From a virus, in IMG/VR virus record IMGVR_UViG_3300024327_000005, positions 1 through 64,000 of that record: DNA of 64,000 nt, one strand, 5' to 3'. How positions within the stretch are numbered: the stretch's first letter is position 1; the number at the start of each line of letters is the position of its first letter. The notes beneath the pieces are model-generated. The model saw only the letters and a program-made list of their open reading frames with translations. It had not been told where the DNA came from and ran no database searches. This document shows, in pieces, positions 22,411-30,346 of the stretch. Both the position numbers and the translations under genes were made by a program.

Positions 22411-22734
22411 ATGCAAAACTATACCGTCCGATACAATCTCCGTCTAAATGAAGATATAAACTTAAAAGTTTCTGCAAGCTCTCAGCAAGCTGCAGAAATC
22501 ATGGCTTACGATACAATCTTAGAAATGATTTCCTCAAGCATTCTCGGTAATGACCTTGAAATCTCAATTGAACATATCTCGTCAGTTTTAGAACGACCCC
22601 CCGTTGCAACCTCTGGATACGTACCATTAGTTCAGCAGCACAGAAACGAAAGCTCTGAAAGTATGACTCCTAACAACGGATACACTTCAATAGCGTCTTT
22701 GCAAAACGCCCCAGCTTACACCCGATTAACTTAA
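22411..22734 (+). CDS. hypothetical protein with GYVP motif, 107 aa
   Basis: Starts four bases after the previous stop. Alpha/beta N-terminal 65 residues, then a polar tail. It contains TSGYVPLV near residue 70, echoing the TGYVPAY at the end of the E2-like protein (26793). Last gene before the intergenic inverted repeat at 22741. Not recognised. Confidence 0.65.
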   Translation: MQNYTVRYNLRLNEDINLKVSASSQQAAEIMAYDTILEMISSSILGNDLEISIEHISSVLERPPVATSGYVPLVQQHRNESSESMTPNNGYTSIASLQNAPAYTRLT

Positions 22735-22836: not shown

Positions 22837-23658
22837 TTGTTAAAGACTTTTAACTTAAATGATTCAAAACTGAATTATCACCAAAAAATAATAAAAAAAA
22901 TACAAACTGACTTGTCAGCATTACCAGAAAGATTCTGGAAAACAAACCCTATTATCAGCGGAAGCTATGCGGTCCACCTTCTGTTCAAACCGGCAACTTT
23001 ATATGACGATATCGACGTTTATTTCGAAACCGAAAAGGACTTCTTGGACTGCACTAAAGTTCTGAAAGGGCTTATTGAAAGCAACCCATTACCAAATGGG
23101 GGACAGATTTATCCCGCAAAGAACTCCACTACTTATCTTTATGATTTTGCAAAAATACAATTGATAAATAAAGCGTTCATGCCTCCGCAGAATCTGATTT
23201 ATGATCACGATTTAAAAAACGTCTCAATCGCAATACAAGGTACTGATATTTATCTTGACGATGAAATCTTTAGTCTTTTTTGGAATGATAAGATTTCTAT
23301 AAGATCGACACAAATAACAGACGATATGTCCGACAAAGATAAGATGATTAAAATTGCAAATCTTTATTATCGTGTTAAAAAGTATGCGCTAAAGTATGAT
23401 TTAATTCCCGACTATGAATCGAGAATTATCTTAACCGAGCTGCTTGACTTCCTAGAAGCGATGCCAGAAAACATTAAAGAAACTACCTATGTAGACAGTA
23501 GCATCTACTACGGCTCATATACTGCATCTCAAAAGAATAAATCTTCGATATCTGTAACAATTCATCGAATGAGAGTAGATTTAGCTCATATGAACCAAAT
23601 CGAAAACTCATCTTTAGATGAGCACGAATCCTCAGTTAATAGCTGGTTGGAGTTCTAA
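22837..23658 (+). CDS. nucleotidyltransferase-fold protein
   Basis: 273 residues, apparent TTG start at 22837. Near residue 39 it has the SGSYAVHLL helix-1 motif and DDIDVYFE strand (Asp48/Asp50-like pair) of nucleotidyltransferase-fold proteins such as AbiEii-type toxins and other phage NTases. A helical C-terminal half follows. It probably transfers a nucleotide or phosphate to an unknown acceptor. First gene of the putative ubiquitin-like operon; whether it is functionally linked is unproven. Confidence 0.7.
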   Translation: MLKTFNLNDSKLNYHQKIIKKIQTDLSALPERFWKTNPIISGSYAVHLLFKPATLYDDIDVYFETEKDFLDCTKVLKGLIESNPLPNGGQIYPAKNSTTYLYDFAKIQLINKAFMPPQNLIYDHDLKNVSIAIQGTDIYLDDEIFSLFWNDKISIRSTQITDDMSDKDKMIKIANLYYRVKKYALKYDLIPDYESRIILTELLDFLEAMPENIKETTYVDSSIYYGSYTASQKNKSSISVTIHRMRVDLAHMNQIENSSLDEHESSVNSWLEF

Positions 23659-23689
23659 CTCACAGCCAGCTGCACTAGAAGGCAAAAGA

Positions 23690-23896
23690 ATGAAAACAAT
23701 ATGCTTAAACTTGCAAGATTGCGGTTATAGCGAAGTTATACCTGCTTCCCGGTTTAACGAAATCAACCTCAATGAACCCTTCACTACCTGTCCTCTCTGC
23801 GGGTATTACGCAGTGACTACATCTCAAAATGTAATTTCAGATATAGACTTAAATATATATAAAAAGATATACAAACAATTAAGGAAAGATGAATGA
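23690..23896 (+). CDS. small zinc-ribbon-like protein, 68 aa
   Basis: ATG 23690 chosen over 23618, which would overlap the previous gene. Two Cys pairs (C-x5-C early and CPLC later) fit a zinc ribbon of rubredoxin/treble-clef size. The last codons overlap the next gene by ATGA. In an operon with E1/E2-like proteins a RING-like ligase is tempting, but the Cys count is too low for RING. Confidence 0.6.
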   Translation: MKTICLNLQDCGYSEVIPASRFNEINLNEPFTTCPLCGYYAVTTSQNVISDIDLNIYKKIYKQLRKDE

Positions 23897-26793
23897 TCTT
23901 TATTAACCTCCTCGCTAATATAGCCCCATCGAATTTAAATAGACAGCCCTACATAGACGCTCTCACTAAGCTTATAGTGATGGAGGATCCAGAGTCTCCA
24001 AATACGACTTACTATTCTGGTAATTTATCCGAAGCAATCAGGAATACAGAAGGCGTTGGTAATTTCGTTGAATCCTTAAACCCAACTCTATTTAAGGATG
24101 AAGATTCAACGTTTCCGCTAATAGACGTAATTCACATGCGGAATAGCGTTATAAATCTAAATAGCATTTTAAGATCTTCGTATCCAAACACATCTTTTTG
24201 GAATCGATATCTCAACGGTAATGTCGCGCAATTAAGTGCCCAACATCCAACGCTGCTTGCAAATGCATTATGCTTGAATCAGAACTTCAGAAATATTACC
24301 GGGTACAATCGAAGAGAACCTAATCTTTATTTTTCTAAAATCTACGAGGCATTCAAATGCACTAGAGGTTTAAACGAAAAGATATCAATCAACAACGAAG
24401 CTCATGCGTCGTTGTTAAATGATCAAAAAAATCTATGCGCTGTTAGCAGATTCAAACCTCACATATTGCAAATCGACAACAATCAACACACTGTAAAGGA
24501 TCAGCATCAAGTTTTTCGGTACCTAAGAGACTTCATTCTAATCACGCTAGCGCTGAAAGAAAAGCCAGAAGAGAGTACGGACGAAGTGTTGAAGCAGTTG
24601 GAGTCTGTAATTCCTGACGAAAGTCTTTTTGCATATACTCAAACAAGACGCACAGATAACGATACCAGTTTCAATAACTTGAATTTCAATAGAATCACCA
24701 CTACGCTGTTAGCTCAGTCGCCAGAAGAACTAACTCGACAGGTAAATTCTATAGACAGCTTAACTTTCAACACTTATATCAAGCAAAACCGCCTGGGCCT
24801 TTTCGATGGGAAAGAAGTTTTCTCTTTTTTCTCAAAAGCGTTTTTTCAAAAATTCTTACATATTTCAAACAAGAAATCAGTACATGAAGACGCTTCTGAA
24901 TCAGAGATACTTCAAAACATTGTTTGTTTCGATACGATTCCGCCAATAGACCTCCAATTAGCGCCGTCTAAAGGTAACCATAATAACTGGAGCTATGGTG
25001 ACGGCTTGTCTTCTGAACCAGCCCATTCTCGTGCAATGATCCTTCCAAGTCAAGATTCTAATGCAGATTTCATCCCAATTGGCCTTGGTACTGGAGTTAC
25101 ATTCATGCATGGAGCGCAAGACATTTACTCAATAAAACTACAAGAACACATTGAGTCTTTACCCCAATCAAGAGTCGTTGGGTTGATTTCTAATGGGTTC
25201 ACAAAAAGAACCCAAAAAGAAAAGTTTGAATTCATATCACTTACAAAGAAACAGTCAACGATTCGAAAAGGGTTTTTCATACCCACATTATTTCCAATCG
25301 AATACAGAGATGAGAACTTTGAAATACAAAAAGGATATTCGTTCTCCTTAGTTTGTTTAAGTTCTACATATGACGAAATGTGTAATAAGTCAAGAAGCAG
25401 AGAGGAGTTGCTTAATATGCTGAGTAACTACCAGACAACTGACGGTATGTATTTTATCGACAAGGCTCAGCACATAGCCTTACAGAAAGAGATCATGAAG
25501 GGGTTAATAGAGTACTCAAACTCTCTAATCCCATCTTTCAAGGATTTAAGTCCACAAAGCCTCAACTCGCTTAAGGCTACCTTAAAAGCGAAGAAGGAAA
25601 AAGCAGAAACCTTTTTATCTACTATTGATATTGATTTTTTCGATCACTTATCTTCTGAACCAAATGTAAATCCTCTTATAAAAAAGAAATACAACAAAGT
25701 ATCCACAGGCTACAATCGCTTATCTAAAATAAATACTGAAAAAGAAAATTCCTCAGTATTAGCTAGTGCTAACGTTGAGTCCCAGCTGGGTGCAATTGAC
25801 ACAAAAATGGCACAAATCGAAATCTTTAAGCAAGAGATCGCTAAATCCGAAATTGAAATTACGAAACACTTAGCGAACCTAAAGGAAAGTTTTAACTCTC
25901 GAGTAGAGATATCCAGCACACTAATGCTGAACCGAGAACTATACGAATCAGTTAAAATTCGTTATGAATCTGCATGTCAAAAAGCTAAGGACGATAAAGA
26001 TTACATTAGTAATGGGTTCTTTAAAAACTTATCAATCAGTAACCAGATCACCATTTTTGAACTAATTCTGACAGACGAGACTGACTCAGATAATCAAATA
26101 AAATATGATCAAGATTTTTTCAATGCTAATGGAAATGCGAATTTCCAATCTTTTGATAAAAATGTGCATAAGATCCAAAGTGTAAAATTTTTAATTAATT
26201 CTCCTTCGATAATTAGCGTAGATAATGGCGCAAAAAGTAGTATTTGCGGCGGACCCTACGTCGTCTCTGTTTTTAGAGGTGCGTTACAAATCGCTTTGGC
26301 CTATCCAAGCTCAATACATGGAGTTTCAAATGGTGACATCCTTGTACATCCTCATTCATCGCAAATTAGAAAGAATAATTTTGTAACTCAAACCCAAGAG
26401 TATCAATGGATGTCTGCCTGTCTCGGTGAAGCATCCTCTCTGATCTATAGCGCTTTCGAAAGTAACAATTTGAAAACAATTTTGCTGGCAGCATTAACTT
26501 GGGTTAAAAGCGCCAACAGTACCGATGTCTGGGGCAAAAGATATAAATTTTTCCCAAAAGCAACTGAAATAAACTTCGAAACTAATCCACCTACAAGTCC
26601 TGCTGTCGACGAAGAGGTCATTAACGAAGATGAAATTCACGACTTTCTGGAAGAAATGATTTCTGAAGATTCAACTGAAGCTGAATCAGAGATTGAAATA
26701 GTACCCTCCGAAGAGCCAGAAGCTCAAGGATTTTCACCTGATCAATTTGCTCAACCTGTAACTGGCTATGTACCAGCCTATAATCGATCTTGA
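23893..26793 (+). CDS. 966-residue protein with E2-like C-terminal domain
   Basis: ATGA-coupled to the zinc-ribbon gene. Residues 1-560 match nothing I recognise. About 560-720 is coiled-coil/helical (KAKKEKAETFL, then Lys/Glu-rich helices). Residues about 790-890 have an E2-like layout: GGPYVVSVFRGALQIAL (E2 sheet), HPH at 819-821 (the E2 HPN equivalent), then SACLGE with Cys843 as candidate catalytic Cys and a helix after it. The tail (about 905-966) is acidic and ends TGYVPAYNRS. E2 enzymes carry activated ubiquitin-like proteins as thioesters. The next two genes encode a JAMM peptidase and an E1-like enzyme, which supports the call. Activity is inferred. Confidence 0.6.
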   Translation: MIFINLLANIAPSNLNRQPYIDALTKLIVMEDPESPNTTYYSGNLSEAIRNTEGVGNFVESLNPTLFKDEDSTFPLIDVIHMRNSVINLNSILRSSYPNTSFWNRYLNGNVAQLSAQHPTLLANALCLNQNFRNITGYNRREPNLYFSKIYEAFKCTRGLNEKISINNEAHASLLNDQKNLCAVSRFKPHILQIDNNQHTVKDQHQVFRYLRDFILITLALKEKPEESTDEVLKQLESVIPDESLFAYTQTRRTDNDTSFNNLNFNRITTTLLAQSPEELTRQVNSIDSLTFNTYIKQNRLGLFDGKEVFSFFSKAFFQKFLHISNKKSVHEDASESEILQNIVCFDTIPPIDLQLAPSKGNHNNWSYGDGLSSEPAHSRAMILPSQDSNADFIPIGLGTGVTFMHGAQDIYSIKLQEHIESLPQSRVVGLISNGFTKRTQKEKFEFISLTKKQSTIRKGFFIPTLFPIEYRDENFEIQKGYSFSLVCLSSTYDEMCNKSRSREELLNMLSNYQTTDGMYFIDKAQHIALQKEIMKGLIEYSNSLIPSFKDLSPQSLNSLKATLKAKKEKAETFLSTIDIDFFDHLSSEPNVNPLIKKKYNKVSTGYNRLSKINTEKENSSVLASANVESQLGAIDTKMAQIEIFKQEIAKSEIEITKHLANLKESFNSRVEISSTLMLNRELYESVKIRYESACQKAKDDKDYISNGFFKNLSISNQITIFELILTDETDSDNQIKYDQDFFNANGNANFQSFDKNVHKIQSVKFLINSPSIISVDNGAKSSICGGPYVVSVFRGALQIALAYPSSIHGVSNGDILVHPHSSQIRKNNFVTQTQEYQWMSACLGEASSLIYSAFESNNLKTILLAALTWVKSANSTDVWGKRYKFFPKATEINFETNPPTSPAVDEEVINEDEIHDFLEEMISEDSTEAESEIEIVPSEEPEAQGFSPDQFAQPVTGYVPAYNRS

Positions 26794-26817
26794 TACATTA
26801 AAAAAAAGAAAAAATAG

Positions 26818-27936
26818 ATGCAATCCATAACTACATATAAAGTTTTAAATAACTTGCCTTACATTAATATAACCTATAAGGGGCTTTTAGCAATTAAAGA
26901 AATTGTAAAAATTGCGCCCCAAGAAGCTCAATGGTTCCATACTGTTGAACCCTTTGCTTACAAGCAATCCCCACATGAAATTCAACTACTTTTGTCTGAT
27001 AAGATTTACATTCCAAGTCAAAACACTTCAGCAGTACAAGTAGACACTACATCTGCAATGATGATGGATTTTTATAAAGACCTACAAAAAGACTATCAAG
27101 ACCAGAATGTTGTGAACCAAAAACTTACAGCAATGACGTGCTGGTGTCACAGCCATCACAACATGTCTCCAAATCCCAGCCATCAAGACGATTTACAATT
27201 CAACTCCTTTATCTCTCTCGCAAAAGATCAGGAGCAGAAATCTTGGCAAATTATGCTAATTTTTAACAAGAAAGATCAATTCTATTCAAGAGTTTATGAC
27301 CCCCACACGGCTACAGTCCACGAGGGTGTGCCTGTTAATATAATCAATGATTACAATTTCAATTACATACATCAGGCTGCTAAAGATAAGTTCAAAAAGC
27401 CTAAGTTAGCCCCCAAAAATTTGTGGTCTTTCAATCAAGGTAGTTTTGGTGCCAAATCTTCAGCCCCAAAGACGGCAGCATCCCTAGACTTGAAGCCCAC
27501 AGGTGGGCAATCTGTCAATTGGGAAATTGCCATCGAAATACTGGCAGAAGCTTTCGATTGGTATAGCTTCGAAAGCTTATCGACGAGCCAACACAATAAA
27601 AAGATTGACTTTACTGAGCTTAGAACTAGCGACTTCTTTGCTACATTAGCAAAATATCTAGATGACAAAGAAATTATATTGTTTTCATATTTAGTTTCTA
27701 AGCGGGCATCTGACATATTGCCTATATTTACAGAAAAAGCATTTGAAAAGAAATTTGCACTAGCTGACTATGATGATTTCGAAGCCGCAATTATAGAAGA
27801 ATATACTTCTTGCATTGAAAATGAAACTTTTACTCTAAGTGAGATAAGTGAAGCGCTGCAAGATACATTAAAATTAACTGAAATTTCTACAAAAAAAGAT
27901 TGCAAGGAGTTCCTTAAAGAAAATGGTCACATCTAA
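26818..27936 (+). CDS. JAMM/JAB-domain metallopeptidase
   Basis: 372 residues. The N-terminal domain (about 1-185) has the full JAMM zinc motif: Glu36, then His111-x-His113, Ser121 and Asp124 (HxH-x7-S-xx-D). Such enzymes remove or mature ubiquitin-like tags at a C-terminal Gly. The second half (about 200-372) is helical and unassigned. The gene ends 14 bases inside the E1-like gene. It would process the ubiquitin-like proteins at 28921-30346 or remove them from targets. Confidence 0.85.
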   Translation: MQSITTYKVLNNLPYINITYKGLLAIKEIVKIAPQEAQWFHTVEPFAYKQSPHEIQLLLSDKIYIPSQNTSAVQVDTTSAMMMDFYKDLQKDYQDQNVVNQKLTAMTCWCHSHHNMSPNPSHQDDLQFNSFISLAKDQEQKSWQIMLIFNKKDQFYSRVYDPHTATVHEGVPVNIINDYNFNYIHQAAKDKFKKPKLAPKNLWSFNQGSFGAKSSAPKTAASLDLKPTGGQSVNWEIAIEILAEAFDWYSFESLSTSQHNKKIDFTELRTSDFFATLAKYLDDKEIILFSYLVSKRASDILPIFTEKAFEKKFALADYDDFEAAIIEEYTSCIENETFTLSEISEALQDTLKLTEISTKKDCKEFLKENGHI

Positions 27937-28645
27937 CGTAAGTTTTTTAAGACATGGTGCCTTTTTTGGTCCTGAAGATTCTCAAGAGCGAATACTGAAC
28001 ATTATTGGCGTTGGCGCAACAGGAAGTTGGGTTGGATATCTAGCTGCAAAAATGGGCTGGCAGCACTTCCGAGTATGGGACGCAGACACGGTAGAGAGCC
28101 ACAATCTGCCCAACCAGATATATGATATCTCTCAGGTTGGGATGCCAAAGGTTGAGGCATTCAAGCAAAAACTGCTTGAATTCAACCCAACTGTACAAGT
28201 CAAGACCTATAATGAGTTTTATACTTCTGAAAAGTACAGAAACGAATTGGAAGATTATGTGTTTATTGGTGTCGACACTCTGTTCGCACGCAAAGATATA
28301 ATGGAGGGAGCTAAATCACATTTACTGATAGAGGGAATCTTCGAAAGTCGAATGGGGTTTCAGCACGCTGAAATAAACTATCTAGATCCAGCCTACCCTT
28401 CTCAAGTGGACGAGTACCTGTCTCTCTTGAAAACCGATGATGAAGTTGAAGAAAGCGCGTGTAATGCACGTATAATCACAACTTTAACTTGTATAATCGC
28501 CTCAAACATAGTACATACTATTTGCGCTCTTGCAGCGCAAGAAAGACACGGGGAGTGTTATGCTCCTCCAAAAAAACAAATGTTTTCTCTTCCTTCTAAC
28601 ATAAATACCCCCTTATCAATCCATACACCAAGGATAGCTAAATGA
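27923..28645 (+). CDS. ThiF/E1-like adenylating enzyme
   Basis: 240 residues. A Rossmann nucleotide loop GVGATGS (29-35), then RVWDADTVESHNLPNQ (Asp53, Asp55 and Asn/Gln of the ATP site) and a GMPKVEAFK segment with the catalytic Lys-like residue match the ThiF/MoeB/E1 family. Cys candidates for a thioester lie at Cys180 and later (TLTCII, ICALAA, GECY). E1-like enzymes adenylate the C-terminal Gly of a ubiquitin-like protein. Overlaps the next gene by ATGA. Confidence 0.9.
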   Translation: MVTSNVSFLRHGAFFGPEDSQERILNIIGVGATGSWVGYLAAKMGWQHFRVWDADTVESHNLPNQIYDISQVGMPKVEAFKQKLLEFNPTVQVKTYNEFYTSEKYRNELEDYVFIGVDTLFARKDIMEGAKSHLLIEGIFESRMGFQHAEINYLDPAYPSQVDEYLSLLKTDDEVEESACNARIITTLTCIIASNIVHTICALAAQERHGECYAPPKKQMFSLPSNINTPLSIHTPRIAK

Positions 28646-28830
28646 CAGTTAAAGATCAACTTCAAGAAGTTCTAACTCTAATTACAGCAGCAGTTCAAGA
28701 TGCTGAAAAATTTGACTCTGGTAACGATACCGCTGGAAAGCGGTTACGTATGGCTGCACAAGAAGCCAAAACAAAACTTCAACAACTTCGAGTAAACATC
28801 CAAGAAGAGAGAAACTCAAGAAAACAATAA
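28642..28830 (+). CDS. small histone-H1-like protein, 62 aa
   Basis: Helical, with DAEKFDSGNDTAGKRLR followed by an Ala/Lys helix and a basic end. This resembles bacterial Hc1/histone-H1-like proteins (a 'GN..AG.R.R' core), which bind DNA. ATGA-coupled to the E1-like gene; a terminator follows. Similarity is by eye only. Confidence 0.5.
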   Translation: MTVKDQLQEVLTLITAAVQDAEKFDSGNDTAGKRLRMAAQEAKTKLQQLRVNIQEERNSRKQ

Positions 28831-28876
28831 ATAACACTCGTGGTATCGAGTTAAAATACTAAACATATTAATTTAA

Positions 28877-28900
28877 AAGGAAGCCTGGCTTCCTTTTTTT
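28877..28900 (+). terminator. intrinsic terminator between E1 operon and ubiquitin-like genes
   Basis: An 8-bp stem AAGGAAGC/GCTTCCTT around a 3-base loop (28877-28895) is followed by TTTTTTT. It separates the enzyme genes from the ubiquitin-like genes starting at 28921, so the substrates may be expressed separately or at a different level through readthrough. Confidence 0.8.
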
Positions 28901-28920
28901 GTATTACTTAAGGAAAATAA

Positions 28921-29139
28921 ATGAACAACATCACACTAATAATCATCCCCGGCCCTGGCGCTCGCTCTGTCCAAATCGATCAAAACATTACTGTTGCTAG
29001 CTTGGTCTGCTCAGAAAACCTACACGGTAGAGATATTATTATTAACGGCGCCGGAGTTCCGGCGGCACAATTCGAAACCACAACAATTCCTAACGATGCA
29101 GAAGTCTTCGCAACTGGATCGGTGAAGGGCAACCGTTAG
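28921..29139 (+). CDS. ubiquitin-like protein 1, 72 aa
   Basis: Short beta-grasp-like protein with alternating strands: NITLIIIPGPGARSVQI, a helix-like SLVCSENLHG, DIIINGAGV, then FATGSVKGNR and the stop. It is paralogous to the proteins at 29525 and 30032 (shared LHGRDIIxxGxGVP and the end ATGSVKGN). The Gly before Asn-Arg could be the exposed processing site for the JAMM enzyme. TAG overlaps GTG 29139 of the next gene (TAGTG). Confidence 0.75.
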   Translation: MNNITLIIIPGPGARSVQIDQNITVASLVCSENLHGRDIIINGAGVPAAQFETTTIPNDAEVFATGSVKGNR

Positions 29140-29444
29140 TGGGTGCATGCACCTTTTTTGATGAAGCATTTGGAGATTCAGCTGAAGAAGCCTTTCAAGC
29201 AGCAAAATCAGATGCAAATTGGATGCATGGCCACGCCGGTTATACCGGAACTATTGCTGAAAAAAACGACTTCTCTATGGCTTCAAACGAACTCTTAGCA
29301 GAAGTCGCAGCTTACAAGCTCGCCAGATCTCTCATCGCTACTGACTATTGCGACAAGTGGGGGCTTGCTGGATGCATCCAAATCACTAATTCACCTAACA
29401 ATTCACTTAACAAATATTTATTCTTTGGCTGGGCTTCTGAATAA
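29139..29444 (+). CDS. partner domain of ubiquitin-like protein 1, 101 aa
   Basis: GTG start at 29139 shares a base with the previous stop, with a TGAAGGG site 8 bases upstream inside the ubiquitin-like gene. The product has the motif HGHAGYTGTIAEK and ends LNKYLFFGWASE. A related sequence follows ubiquitin-like protein 2 in the same -1 register, so the pair is a duplicated cassette. Function unknown; it may be a conjugation target or a carrier. Confidence 0.65.
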   Translation: MGACTFFDEAFGDSAEEAFQAAKSDANWMHGHAGYTGTIAEKNDFSMASNELLAEVAAYKLARSLIATDYCDKWGLAGCIQITNSPNNSLNKYLFFGWASE

Positions 29445-29524
29445 GTATCCAGCCAAACACATCTAGAACTAACCAACACACAAGGAGTGAAAACTCCTTT
29501 TCAACATATAAGAAGAAAAAAATT

Positions 29525-29767
29525 ATGTCTAACGCTACATTAATCATTATACCTGGACCTGGCGCTCGTTCTATTCAGTTGGATTCCAACATGACGATTG
29601 CTCAACTTGTTTGTAGAGAAAATCTACACGGTCGTGACATCATCATTAACGGCACTGGAGTTCCAGTGGCACAATTCGAAACACAAATCATTCCTAATGG
29701 TGCAGAAGTTTTTGCAACCGGCTCTGTAAAGGGCAACTCTTTAAATTTTACCATGCGTCTTCTTTAG
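29525..29767 (+). CDS. ubiquitin-like protein 2, 80 aa
   Basis: Close paralogue of protein 1 (same IIPGPGARS, LHGRDIIINGTGVP, FATGSVKGN). The frame continues nine residues past KGN (SLNFTMRLL) before TAG. A slippery TTTAAAT (29740-29746) lies in that extra stretch, and the -1 frame then continues into a partner domain, so two products are possible: 80 residues, or a fusion of about 170. Confidence 0.75.
   Translation: MSNATLIIIPGPGARSIQLDSNMTIAQLVCRENLHGRDIIINGTGVPVAQFETQIIPNGAEVFATGSVKGNSLNFTMRLL
29740..29746 (+). promoter_or_regulatory. candidate -1 ribosomal frameshift site TTTAAAT
   Basis: Canonical X_XXY_YYZ heptamer aligned to the zero frame of ubiquitin-like protein 2 (codons TTA at 29741-29743 and AAT at 29744-29746). 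A second heptamer-like AAAGGGC sits at 29728-29734, also in register. A 7-bp stem with a bulge (29774-29792) follows, though farther away than usual. Shifting -1 leads into a reading frame that has no start codon. Confidence 0.5.
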
Positions 29768-30039
29768 GGGCTGGAGCTAAGCAAGCTTACTCAAATCTGA
29801 TTGAATCAGAAAGTGCTTGGAAGGAACACTCAAGTATTCCTTCCGCATTCCTAGAGACTAAAAGGTACAAGATCGTCATAACGACCCCTTTTAGCACTGA
29901 AGAAGACGCCTTGGATTTCATTTCAACCAACTCTCCTTTTAAAATGCGTTCTAAGACTGCTGGATGCGTAATCCTTGGAGTTGAAGACGGACTAACTAAC
30001 TACTTATTTTTTACACAAACACAGGATAAAAATGACTAA
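29740..30039 (+). CDS. partner domain 2, reached only by -1 frameshift
   Basis: The frame is open from 29698 to TAA 30037-30039 but has no ATG, GTG or TTG before the conserved region. Decoded from the slippery site it gives about 98 residues (FYHASSLGAGAKQAYSN onward) related to the partner at 29139: similar helix with AF/AY, a W, then a LTNYLFF ending. Its stop overlaps the start of ubiquitin-like protein 3 (30032). If not frameshifted it would be an untranslated remnant. Confidence 0.5.
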   Translation, partial: FKFYHASSLGAGAKQAYSNLIESESAWKEHSSIPSAFLETKRYKIVITTPFSTEEDALDFISTNSPFKMRSKTAGCVILGVEDGLTNYLFFTQTQDKND

Positions 30040-30346
30040 CATCACATTAATAATCATACCTGGCTCTGGCGCTCGCCAAGTCTCAGTACAACCTGGTTCT
30101 ACTATTGCAGACCTTGTTTCAAATGAAAATCTTCACGGTCGAGATATCATCGTTGACGGCGCTGGTGTTCCAGCGACGCTCTGGGCAAGCACTCAGGTAA
30201 CCTCAAATGCAGAAATTTTCGCAACGGGCTCCGTAAAAGGCAATGCCAAAGGCGGAGGTCGACCTGCTAATGCTCCATCAGGAACTGGCCGCCCTTCTGG
30301 GGGTGGCCGAGGCAACAATCCTCCATCCTCTGGCTCTAAAAAATAA
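30032..30346 (+). CDS. ubiquitin-like protein 3 with Gly/Pro-rich tail, 104 aa
   Basis: Third paralogue (IIPGSGARQ, LHGRDIIVDGAGVP, FATGSVKGN). Here the frame continues in phase into a 30-residue tail rich in Gly, Pro, Arg and Ser (KGGGRPANAPSGTGRPSGGG) with no partner domain. The tail could be removed by the JAMM enzyme to expose the Gly of KG, or serve as a flexible linker. The next 170 bases hold no gene. Confidence 0.75.
   Translation: MTNITLIIIPGSGARQVSVQPGSTIADLVSNENLHGRDIIVDGAGVPATLWASTQVTSNAEIFATGSVKGNAKGGGRPANAPSGTGRPSGGGRGNNPPSSGSKK

Follow-up and report, generated by a model that had tools for sequence, protein, structure and literature searches.

A likely ubiquitin-like conjugation cassette in the core genome of a phage lineage

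The IMG/VR virus record IMGVR_UViG_3300024327_000005 has 65,561 bases, of which 64,000 were analysed (the window). Between positions 22,837 and 30,346 the window encodes an E2-like protein, a JAMM peptidase, an E1 and three ubiquitin-like proteins (Ubls). This stretch is likely a phage-core ubiquitin-like conjugation cassette, and we hold this view with good confidence. In bacteria, ubiquitin-like conjugation has mainly been described as an anti-phage defence. Here, it is phages that keep all four parts, E1, E2, JAMM and Ubl, together as a conserved module. An original prediction, made from the DNA sequence alone, had proposed that this phage carries its own conjugation system. All open reading frames (ORFs) it named were found at their coordinates. 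The central features are:

23893..26793, plus strand: 966-aa E2-like protein with a variable N-terminal part of ~700 aa and a C-terminal UBC-like domain
25984..26580, plus strand: E2/UBC-like domain of this protein, residues 698-896 (motif, AlphaFold2 (AF2) model, hhalign)
26347-26355, plus strand: HPH motif, residues 819-821
26419-26421, plus strand: candidate catalytic Cys843
26818..27936, plus strand: JAMM/JAB metallopeptidase with a C-terminal extension (catalytic motif; Prok-JAB in homologues)
27923..28645, plus strand: single-domain ThiF-type E1, 240 aa, candidate thioester Cys180 (ThiF, 80 bits)
28921..29139, plus strand: Ubl1, 72 aa, ending SVKG-NR (AF2 beta-grasp)
29525..29767, plus strand: Ubl2, 80 aa, ending SVKG-NSLNFTMRLL
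30032..30346, plus strand: Ubl3, 104 aa, with the Gly/Arg/Ser-rich tail PSGTGRPSGGGRGNNPP (tail conserved in loci L003, L006, L013 and L014)

Conservation in related phages

Relatives were collected by IMG/VR scans with E1 and Ubl profiles and by a scan of bacterial genomes. These scans yielded 13 related loci; distant phage sets are described below. The related loci are diverged (E1 identity to the window 42-74%) and share the block: E2, JAMM, E1 and Ubl genes are present in 13/13, a nucleotidyltransferase (NTase)-like gene lies upstream of E2 in 12/13, and a gene for an Hc1-like protein is located between E1 and Ubl in 8/13. The order E2-JAMM-E1-Ubl-PhoH and the genes downstream of PhoH are kept in the 13 relatives. 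One of them, L048, stands on a contig listed under a gammaproteobacterial metagenome-assembled genome (MAG). Because the block is conserved in 13 related loci, it goes beyond what chance would produce. The genes for ThyX, PhoH and ribonucleotide reductase adjoin the cassette, and DNA polymerase and UvsX are encoded elsewhere in the window. Since the block is constant beside replication and nucleotide genes, it reads as a core module and not as a sporadic accessory.

E1 and JAMM peptidase

The E1 had been described as a ThiF/E1-like protein with a GVGATGS loop, Asp53 and Asp55. The match to ThiF (80 bits) bears this out, and the homologues (nine per protein, here and below) share G-x-GATGS, D53, D55, N61, Q65, K76, D118 and C180, all invariant or nearly so. 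C180 sits at what we take to be the position of Cys184 in ThiF. With 240 aa, E1 comprises one adenylation domain and is too short to hold a rhodanese or ubiquitin-fold domain in addition. Assignment to ThiF/MoeB cofactor synthesis, which would have undermined the original prediction, was rejected: E1 attains 65.7 bits with the NCBIfam ThiF equivalog models (cut-offs 159-275), and E2 and JAMM genes adjoin E1 in 13/13 relatives. Likewise, the ThiS model yields 13.6 bits with a cut-off of 37.45, so that both E1 and Ubl fall below the equivalog cut-offs of a ThiF/ThiS or MoeB/MoaD system.

The JAMM residues predicted to be intact, E36, H111, H113, S121 and D124, are invariant, with the spacing HxH-x7-S-x2-D. 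Pfam Prok-JAB is matched by 7/9 family members (best E 1.3e-5); the window JAMM alone is below the threshold (17.3 of 25 bits). Its PADLOC matches are generic JAB models only.

Ubiquitin-like proteins

Three paralogous beta-grasp-like proteins ending near KGN had been noticed in the window. They are 63-80% identical and have FATGSVKGN in common. AF2 with 28 Ubls yielded a confident beta-grasp (predicted local distance difference test, pLDDT, 93), and the best Foldseek matches of this model in the PDB were ThiS (3cwi), a MoaD-type protein (6jbz), ThiS-ThiF (1zud) and ubiquitin (probability 1.00). In the 28 Ubls, G70 is invariant. The C-terminus E[VI]FATGSVKG is otherwise invariant as well; beyond it come N and a tail of variable sequence. 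One Ubl per genome carries a strongly conserved PSxTGRPSGGGRGNN tail (window 30242-30343, L003, L006, L013, L014). In bacterial genomes, this Ubl was not found at the sensitivity used.

Six relatives encode Ubls head to tail: two units in L002, L006 and L013, three in L009 and L011, and four in L012. The joint is the invariant FATGSVKG|N plus two to four residues, and the period is mostly 213 bp. Such tandem Ubls look like precursors that a JAMM would cut. In L012 (9989-11140), a single 383-aa ORF contains four Ubls in frame with a C-terminal GYTGTIAEK-type domain (match to the GYT family described below 98%). This arrangement recalls ubiquitin-fusion genes.

The Ubls are nearly devoid of lysine. 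In the 28 cores, counted without the final KG, lysine accounts for one in about 1,900 residues compared to 7% in long phage ORFs. Among variable alignment columns, 0/29 hold lysine in the Ubls and 31-49% in E1, E2 and JAMM. For a modifier that is attached to lysines, this composition would be an advantage.

E2-like protein

The 966-residue protein had been singled out for HPH (819-821) and Cys843. Both are invariant, and so are CLGE and AN..D.WG downstream. The AF2 model of the E2 domain has a pLDDT of 82. Homology to E2 was approached via intermediate profiles. Compact E2s encoded in IMG/VR phage loci L028-L037 have HPHVxGxNGxACLG or a similar motif and occupy the same position in a Ubl/E2-JAMM-E1 set. 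The window E2 clade matched their profile in hhalign with 97% and E 1.4e-10, compared to E values of at least 0.15 for the controls E1, JAMM and PhoH. The compact profile in turn matched a eukaryotic UBC profile, which consisted of five sequences confirmed through their PDB matches, with 91.5% and E 8.4e-7 over 113 columns, HPH being placed on HPN and Cys on Cys. Together with the E2-like protein of Xanthomonas phage PhiXhv-12, the compact E2s scored 44.5 against UBC, and none of 60 column-shuffled profiles exceeded 17.4. By contrast, Prok-E2_D and Prok-E2_B profiles built from bacterial genomes could not be linked convincingly to the phage E2s, and the N-terminal region matched nothing, including the N-termini of distant phage E2s.

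Several observations weigh against conjugation. The direct profile comparison between the window E2 and eukaryotic UBC was not significant (aligned window fragment LKTILLAALTWVKSANSTDV), and a Foldseek search of the PDB with the E2-domain model found no E2 (best E 0.66). The Ubls end in a single Gly without GG. The arginine of the MoeB/ThiF 'RQ' motif is Asn64 in the E1 family of the window. The lysine scarcity comes from related sequences, and the 28 Ubls are not independent observations, so it is supportive only. Sulfur transfer or thioester signalling that involves no stable conjugation is also conceivable.

The first two points would fit a large cysteine protein unrelated to E2, with the Ubls being used by E1 and JAMM only. 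This is improbable in our estimation, since the 97% match to compact phage proteins and their 91.5% match to UBC with aligned active-site residues speak against it. In BFVD, Foldseek retrieved a single close homologue from a phage (E 2.6e-15) along with several unnamed proteins whose probabilities reached 0.98. The failure in the PDB may be due to the HPH-Cys spacing, which amounts to 22 residues and is variable. It is the main caveat to the conclusion that the large protein is homologous to E2, which we regard as probable. The E2 fold proposed in the original prediction is therefore backed by the intermediate profiles and not by the direct fold search.

A second alternative is a sulfur-carrier system, in which ThiS/MoaD/Urm1-like Ubls would receive a thiocarboxylate from E1 and serve the thiolation of a nucleotide, tRNA or cofactor. 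The nearest structural matches of the Ubl model (ThiS, MoaD), the ThiF-type E1 and the position of the block among nucleotide-metabolism genes agree with it. However, an HPH/Cys E2-like protein and a JAMM accompany E1 and Ubl in 13/13 relatives, the ThiF/MoeB cut-offs are not reached, and no cofactor-synthesis gene is present among the neighbouring genes considered, which are part of the window. In addition, tandem Ubls, Ubl-domain fusions and the absence of lysine suit a modifier better. We assign the sulfur carrier a small probability.

Proposed mechanism and significance

For the conjugation cassette, we infer the following sequence of events from motifs, models and gene order. JAMM would cut the Ubl precursors after FATGSVKG. 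This would remove the short tails, split the poly-Ubls of the relatives and probably free the fused small domains. E1 would adenylate the exposed C-terminal Gly and form a thioester, most likely on Cys180. Next, Cys843 in the large E2-like protein would receive the Ubl; the N-terminal part of this protein, ~700 residues long, probably selects the target. Finally, the Ubl would be joined to a host or phage protein, probably at a lysine, and JAMM may also remove attached Ubls. As the Ubl is nearly lysine-free, single tags are expected instead of chains. Candidate targets encoded in the cassette are the Hc1-like protein and the GYT and X proteins (see below); host targets are equally possible.

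Given its position next to PhoH, ThyX and ribonucleotide-reductase genes, the block probably serves reprogramming in the replication phase. A further alternative is counter-defence: phage Ubls and JAMM could be decoys and deconjugases directed against host Bil or Bub, with E1 and E2 serving the same end. Bil acts on phage (PMC11354881 and references therein), and with several Ubls and a JAMM, a phage could swamp the tagging by the host or undo it. Yet a decoy needs no E1 and E2 of its own with conserved active sites, PADLOC detected no similarity to Bil proteins, and throughout the phage group the module is present in conserved gene order, whereas counter-defence genes are usually patchy. Counter-defence is thus unlikely.

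If the conjugation cassette is confirmed, protein tagging would be a viral tool in bacteria. It would offer a simple system for studying the origin of E1-E2-deubiquitinase cascades and a testable function for ORFs of crAss and other phages labelled 'thiamine biosynthesis protein' or 'hypothetical'.

Small proteins between the Ubl genes and a possible frameshift

The Ubl genes are interleaved with two small ORFs:

29139..29444, plus strand: GYT-family small protein ('GYTGTIAEK...YLFFGWASE') in the Ubl1-Ubl2 interval, with homologues in relatives
29740..29749, plus strand: slippery heptamers T_TTA_AAT and A_AAT_TTT, which overlap each other and are in frame with Ubl2, at the end of the Ubl2 gene
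29743..30039, plus strand: start-less ORF X, 98 aa, in the -1 frame relative to Ubl2, without internal stop

Proteins of the GYTGTIAEK family also occur in Gordonia, Rhodococcus and Caulobacter phages; the Caulobacter phages carry them in their terminal repeats. X and GYT are distant relatives (hhalign 93%), a link that rests on the rows of six relatives, as the alignment of X contained the window sequence in a wrong reading frame.

Upstream to the preceding stop, the frame of ORF X contains none of the start codons ATG, GTG and TTG. Homologues with their own ATG are present in L002, L003, L006, L009, L013 and L014. In L011 (10656-10800), the junction AAATTTTAC[C/T]ATG is the same as in the window, and the X N-terminus again lacks an ATG, GTG or TTG start. 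In-frame slippery heptamers occur at 0.5% of codons, so that one is expected by chance in the nine-codon overlap with a probability of about 4%. The RNA downstream of the slippery site folds better than shuffled sequences (z -2.95); the hairpin is not at the typical distance. A Ubl2-X fusion through -1 ribosomal frameshifting is plausible. Alternatively, the missing start might reflect a sequencing indel or start decay.

Such fusions would belong to a more far-reaching scheme, a virus-core polyubiquitin-like system: lysine-free tandem modifiers and Ubl-X -1 frameshift fusions (window, L011) would be cut by the phage JAMM and conjugated by E1 and the giant E2, leading to host reprogramming. As a whole, this scheme is possible but doubtful, and it is offered tentatively.

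Further genes and gene order

The remaining features of the cassette are:

22837..23658, plus strand: putative pol-beta-type nucleotidyltransferase-like protein (SGS...DxD pattern)
23690..23896, plus strand: small Zn-ribbon-like protein (C5, C11, CPLC; weak Zn_ribbon_9 match)
28642..28830, plus strand: Hc1-like 62-aa helical protein (PF07432, E 8.6e-12)
28875..28897, plus strand: Rho-independent terminator-like hairpin at the boundary between enzyme and Ubl genes (10-bp stem, 3-nt loop, T run)

The complete order reads NTase-like (22837), Zn-ribbon, E2-like, JAMM, E1, Hc1-like, hairpin, Ubl1, GYT, Ubl2, X, Ubl3 and PhoH (30452). The original prediction did not contain the NTase-like opening gene, the Zn-ribbon and Hc1-like genes, the small proteins encoded among the Ubl genes or the start-less ORF 29743-30039. 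Its statement that the genes lie on one strand with coupled overlaps was correct: all ORFs are on the plus strand, Zn-ribbon and E2 genes overlap in ATGA (23893-23896), JAMM and E1 genes by 14 bases, and E1 and Hc1 genes in ATGA. The terminator that it had placed between enzymes and substrates corresponds to the hairpin, which is terminator-like by its match to the consensus.

In the NTase-like protein, S-G, D58-x-D60, Q108 and D125 are invariant. Its identity is putative, and no match was found in Pfam, PDB or PADLOC. A homologue of the Zn-ribbon protein was found by blastp in 7/13 relatives. Searches of Pfam, NCBIfam, PHROGs and PADLOC with single window proteins left E2 and NTase unrecognised, and the Ubls drew only matches below threshold. 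Nothing relevant emerged when PDB sequences were searched with the profiles of E2, Ubl, NTase and JAMM. Directly upstream of the cassette lies a small ORF (22411-22734), whose C-terminus YTSIASLQNAPAYTRLT resembles the C-termini of ORFs at the same position in L002, L003 and L014; a blastp search against the relatives found no homologue.

Similar gene sets in other phages and bacteria

The cultured crAss phage crAss001 (L018 2250-6660, gp79-gp76) probably has a Ubl-E2-JAMM-E1 cassette: besides E1 and JAMM there are an HSH...C protein and a candidate Ubl, with annotations such as 'thiamine biosynthesis protein' and 'metalloprotease'. In the human-gut phage MT835544, a possible Ubl, an E2-like protein, JAMM and E1 follow each other in this order. 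The E2-like proteins of these two phages were called by motif only and do not match the window E2 profile. Xanthomonas phage PhiXhv-12 (L019 2736-6612) encodes a possible GG-ended Ubl, an 892-aa HPH...CLG E2-like protein and an E1; no JAMM was seen nearby. In all three phages, these genes are designated hypothetical, metalloprotease or 'thiamine biosynthesis protein', or have no annotation. Ubl(GG)-E2-JAMM-E1 sets were also observed on proteobacterial and Myxococcales MAG contigs (L049, L052, L055). In L052 and L055, genes follow that look recombination-type by eye.

As in the window, the E2-like gene is directly followed by JAMM and E1 in crAss001, MT835544, L028-L037, L049 and L052. In IMG/VR loci L028-L037 and MAG contigs L049 and L052, the C-terminal Gly of the Ubl is conserved (KGN or GG) and the E2 is compact with HPH/PH...C. 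In contrast to these sets, where the Ubl gene is mostly upstream, the window Ubls are located downstream of E1, multiplied, lysine-free and interleaved with small proteins. The proposal of a phage-encoded system is largely upheld; since several other phages, crAss001 among them, carry comparable sets, it applies to more than this contig. Literature searches on phage-encoded Ubl systems found no description, though a prior one may exist; a 2021 survey of jumbo phages does not mention such systems (PMC7824862).

Comparison with known systems

Bacterial operons with the same four components as the window were classified by Iyer et al. in 2006 (rows 6a-6e; PMC1779556). Type 6e has one to three tandem Ubls and a Zn-finger protein, and type 6b a pol-beta nucleotidyltransferase. 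Components, gene grouping and tandem Ubls are therefore already known from bacteria. In contrast to these types, the window E1 is not fused to JAB or E2, the E2 is stand-alone and very large with an upstream HPH, and the context is one of phage replication genes.

Bil (BilABCD) also combines Ubl, E2, JAMM and E1, and BilA holds two Ubl domains. In Bil, the E1 (BilD) is pseudodimeric and has a Cys domain, and the motif of the E2 (BilB) is CEHH (PMC11354881). The window E1 is a 240-aa protein with a single ThiF domain instead of two lobes with a Cys domain. In the window E2, HPH precedes the Cys and is invariant, whereas none of the His residues after the Cys is invariant. With both E1 architecture and CEHH motif deviating, the kinship with Bil that the original prediction had drawn on could not be maintained as membership. 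PRTRC was rejected as well: TIGR03736 gave 23.5 bits with a cut-off of 144.75, and PF14460 (Prok-E2_D) did not match.

CBASS type II with Cap2/Cap3 shares E1, E2, JAB and a nearby nucleotidyltransferase-like gene with the window. There, E2 and E1 are fused in Cap2, and it is the cGAS-like enzyme itself that becomes conjugated (PMC10449767). In the window, E1 and E2 are separate genes, separate Ubls are present, and the NTase-like protein belongs to no PADLOC family, so membership was rejected. The lambda-type tail genes TAPI/TAPK, where a Ubl lies beside JAB-NlpC in a tail operon, were discarded since the cassette is surrounded by genes of replication and nucleotide metabolism.

Eukaryotic polyubiquitin and ubiquitin-fusion genes resemble the cassette in that modifiers lie head to tail with a C-terminal Gly as the cutting point, which is presumed for the cassette, and the last unit may carry another protein, as in L012. 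Unlike these, the window Ubls have no sequence similarity to ubiquitin genes, a single Gly, a KG|N junction and no lysine, and they are viral. New features are that a phage lineage constantly carries the set, that its E2 is giant and stands alone, that a genome can hold as many as five Ubl units with hardly any lysine, and that a frameshift fusion may be formed.

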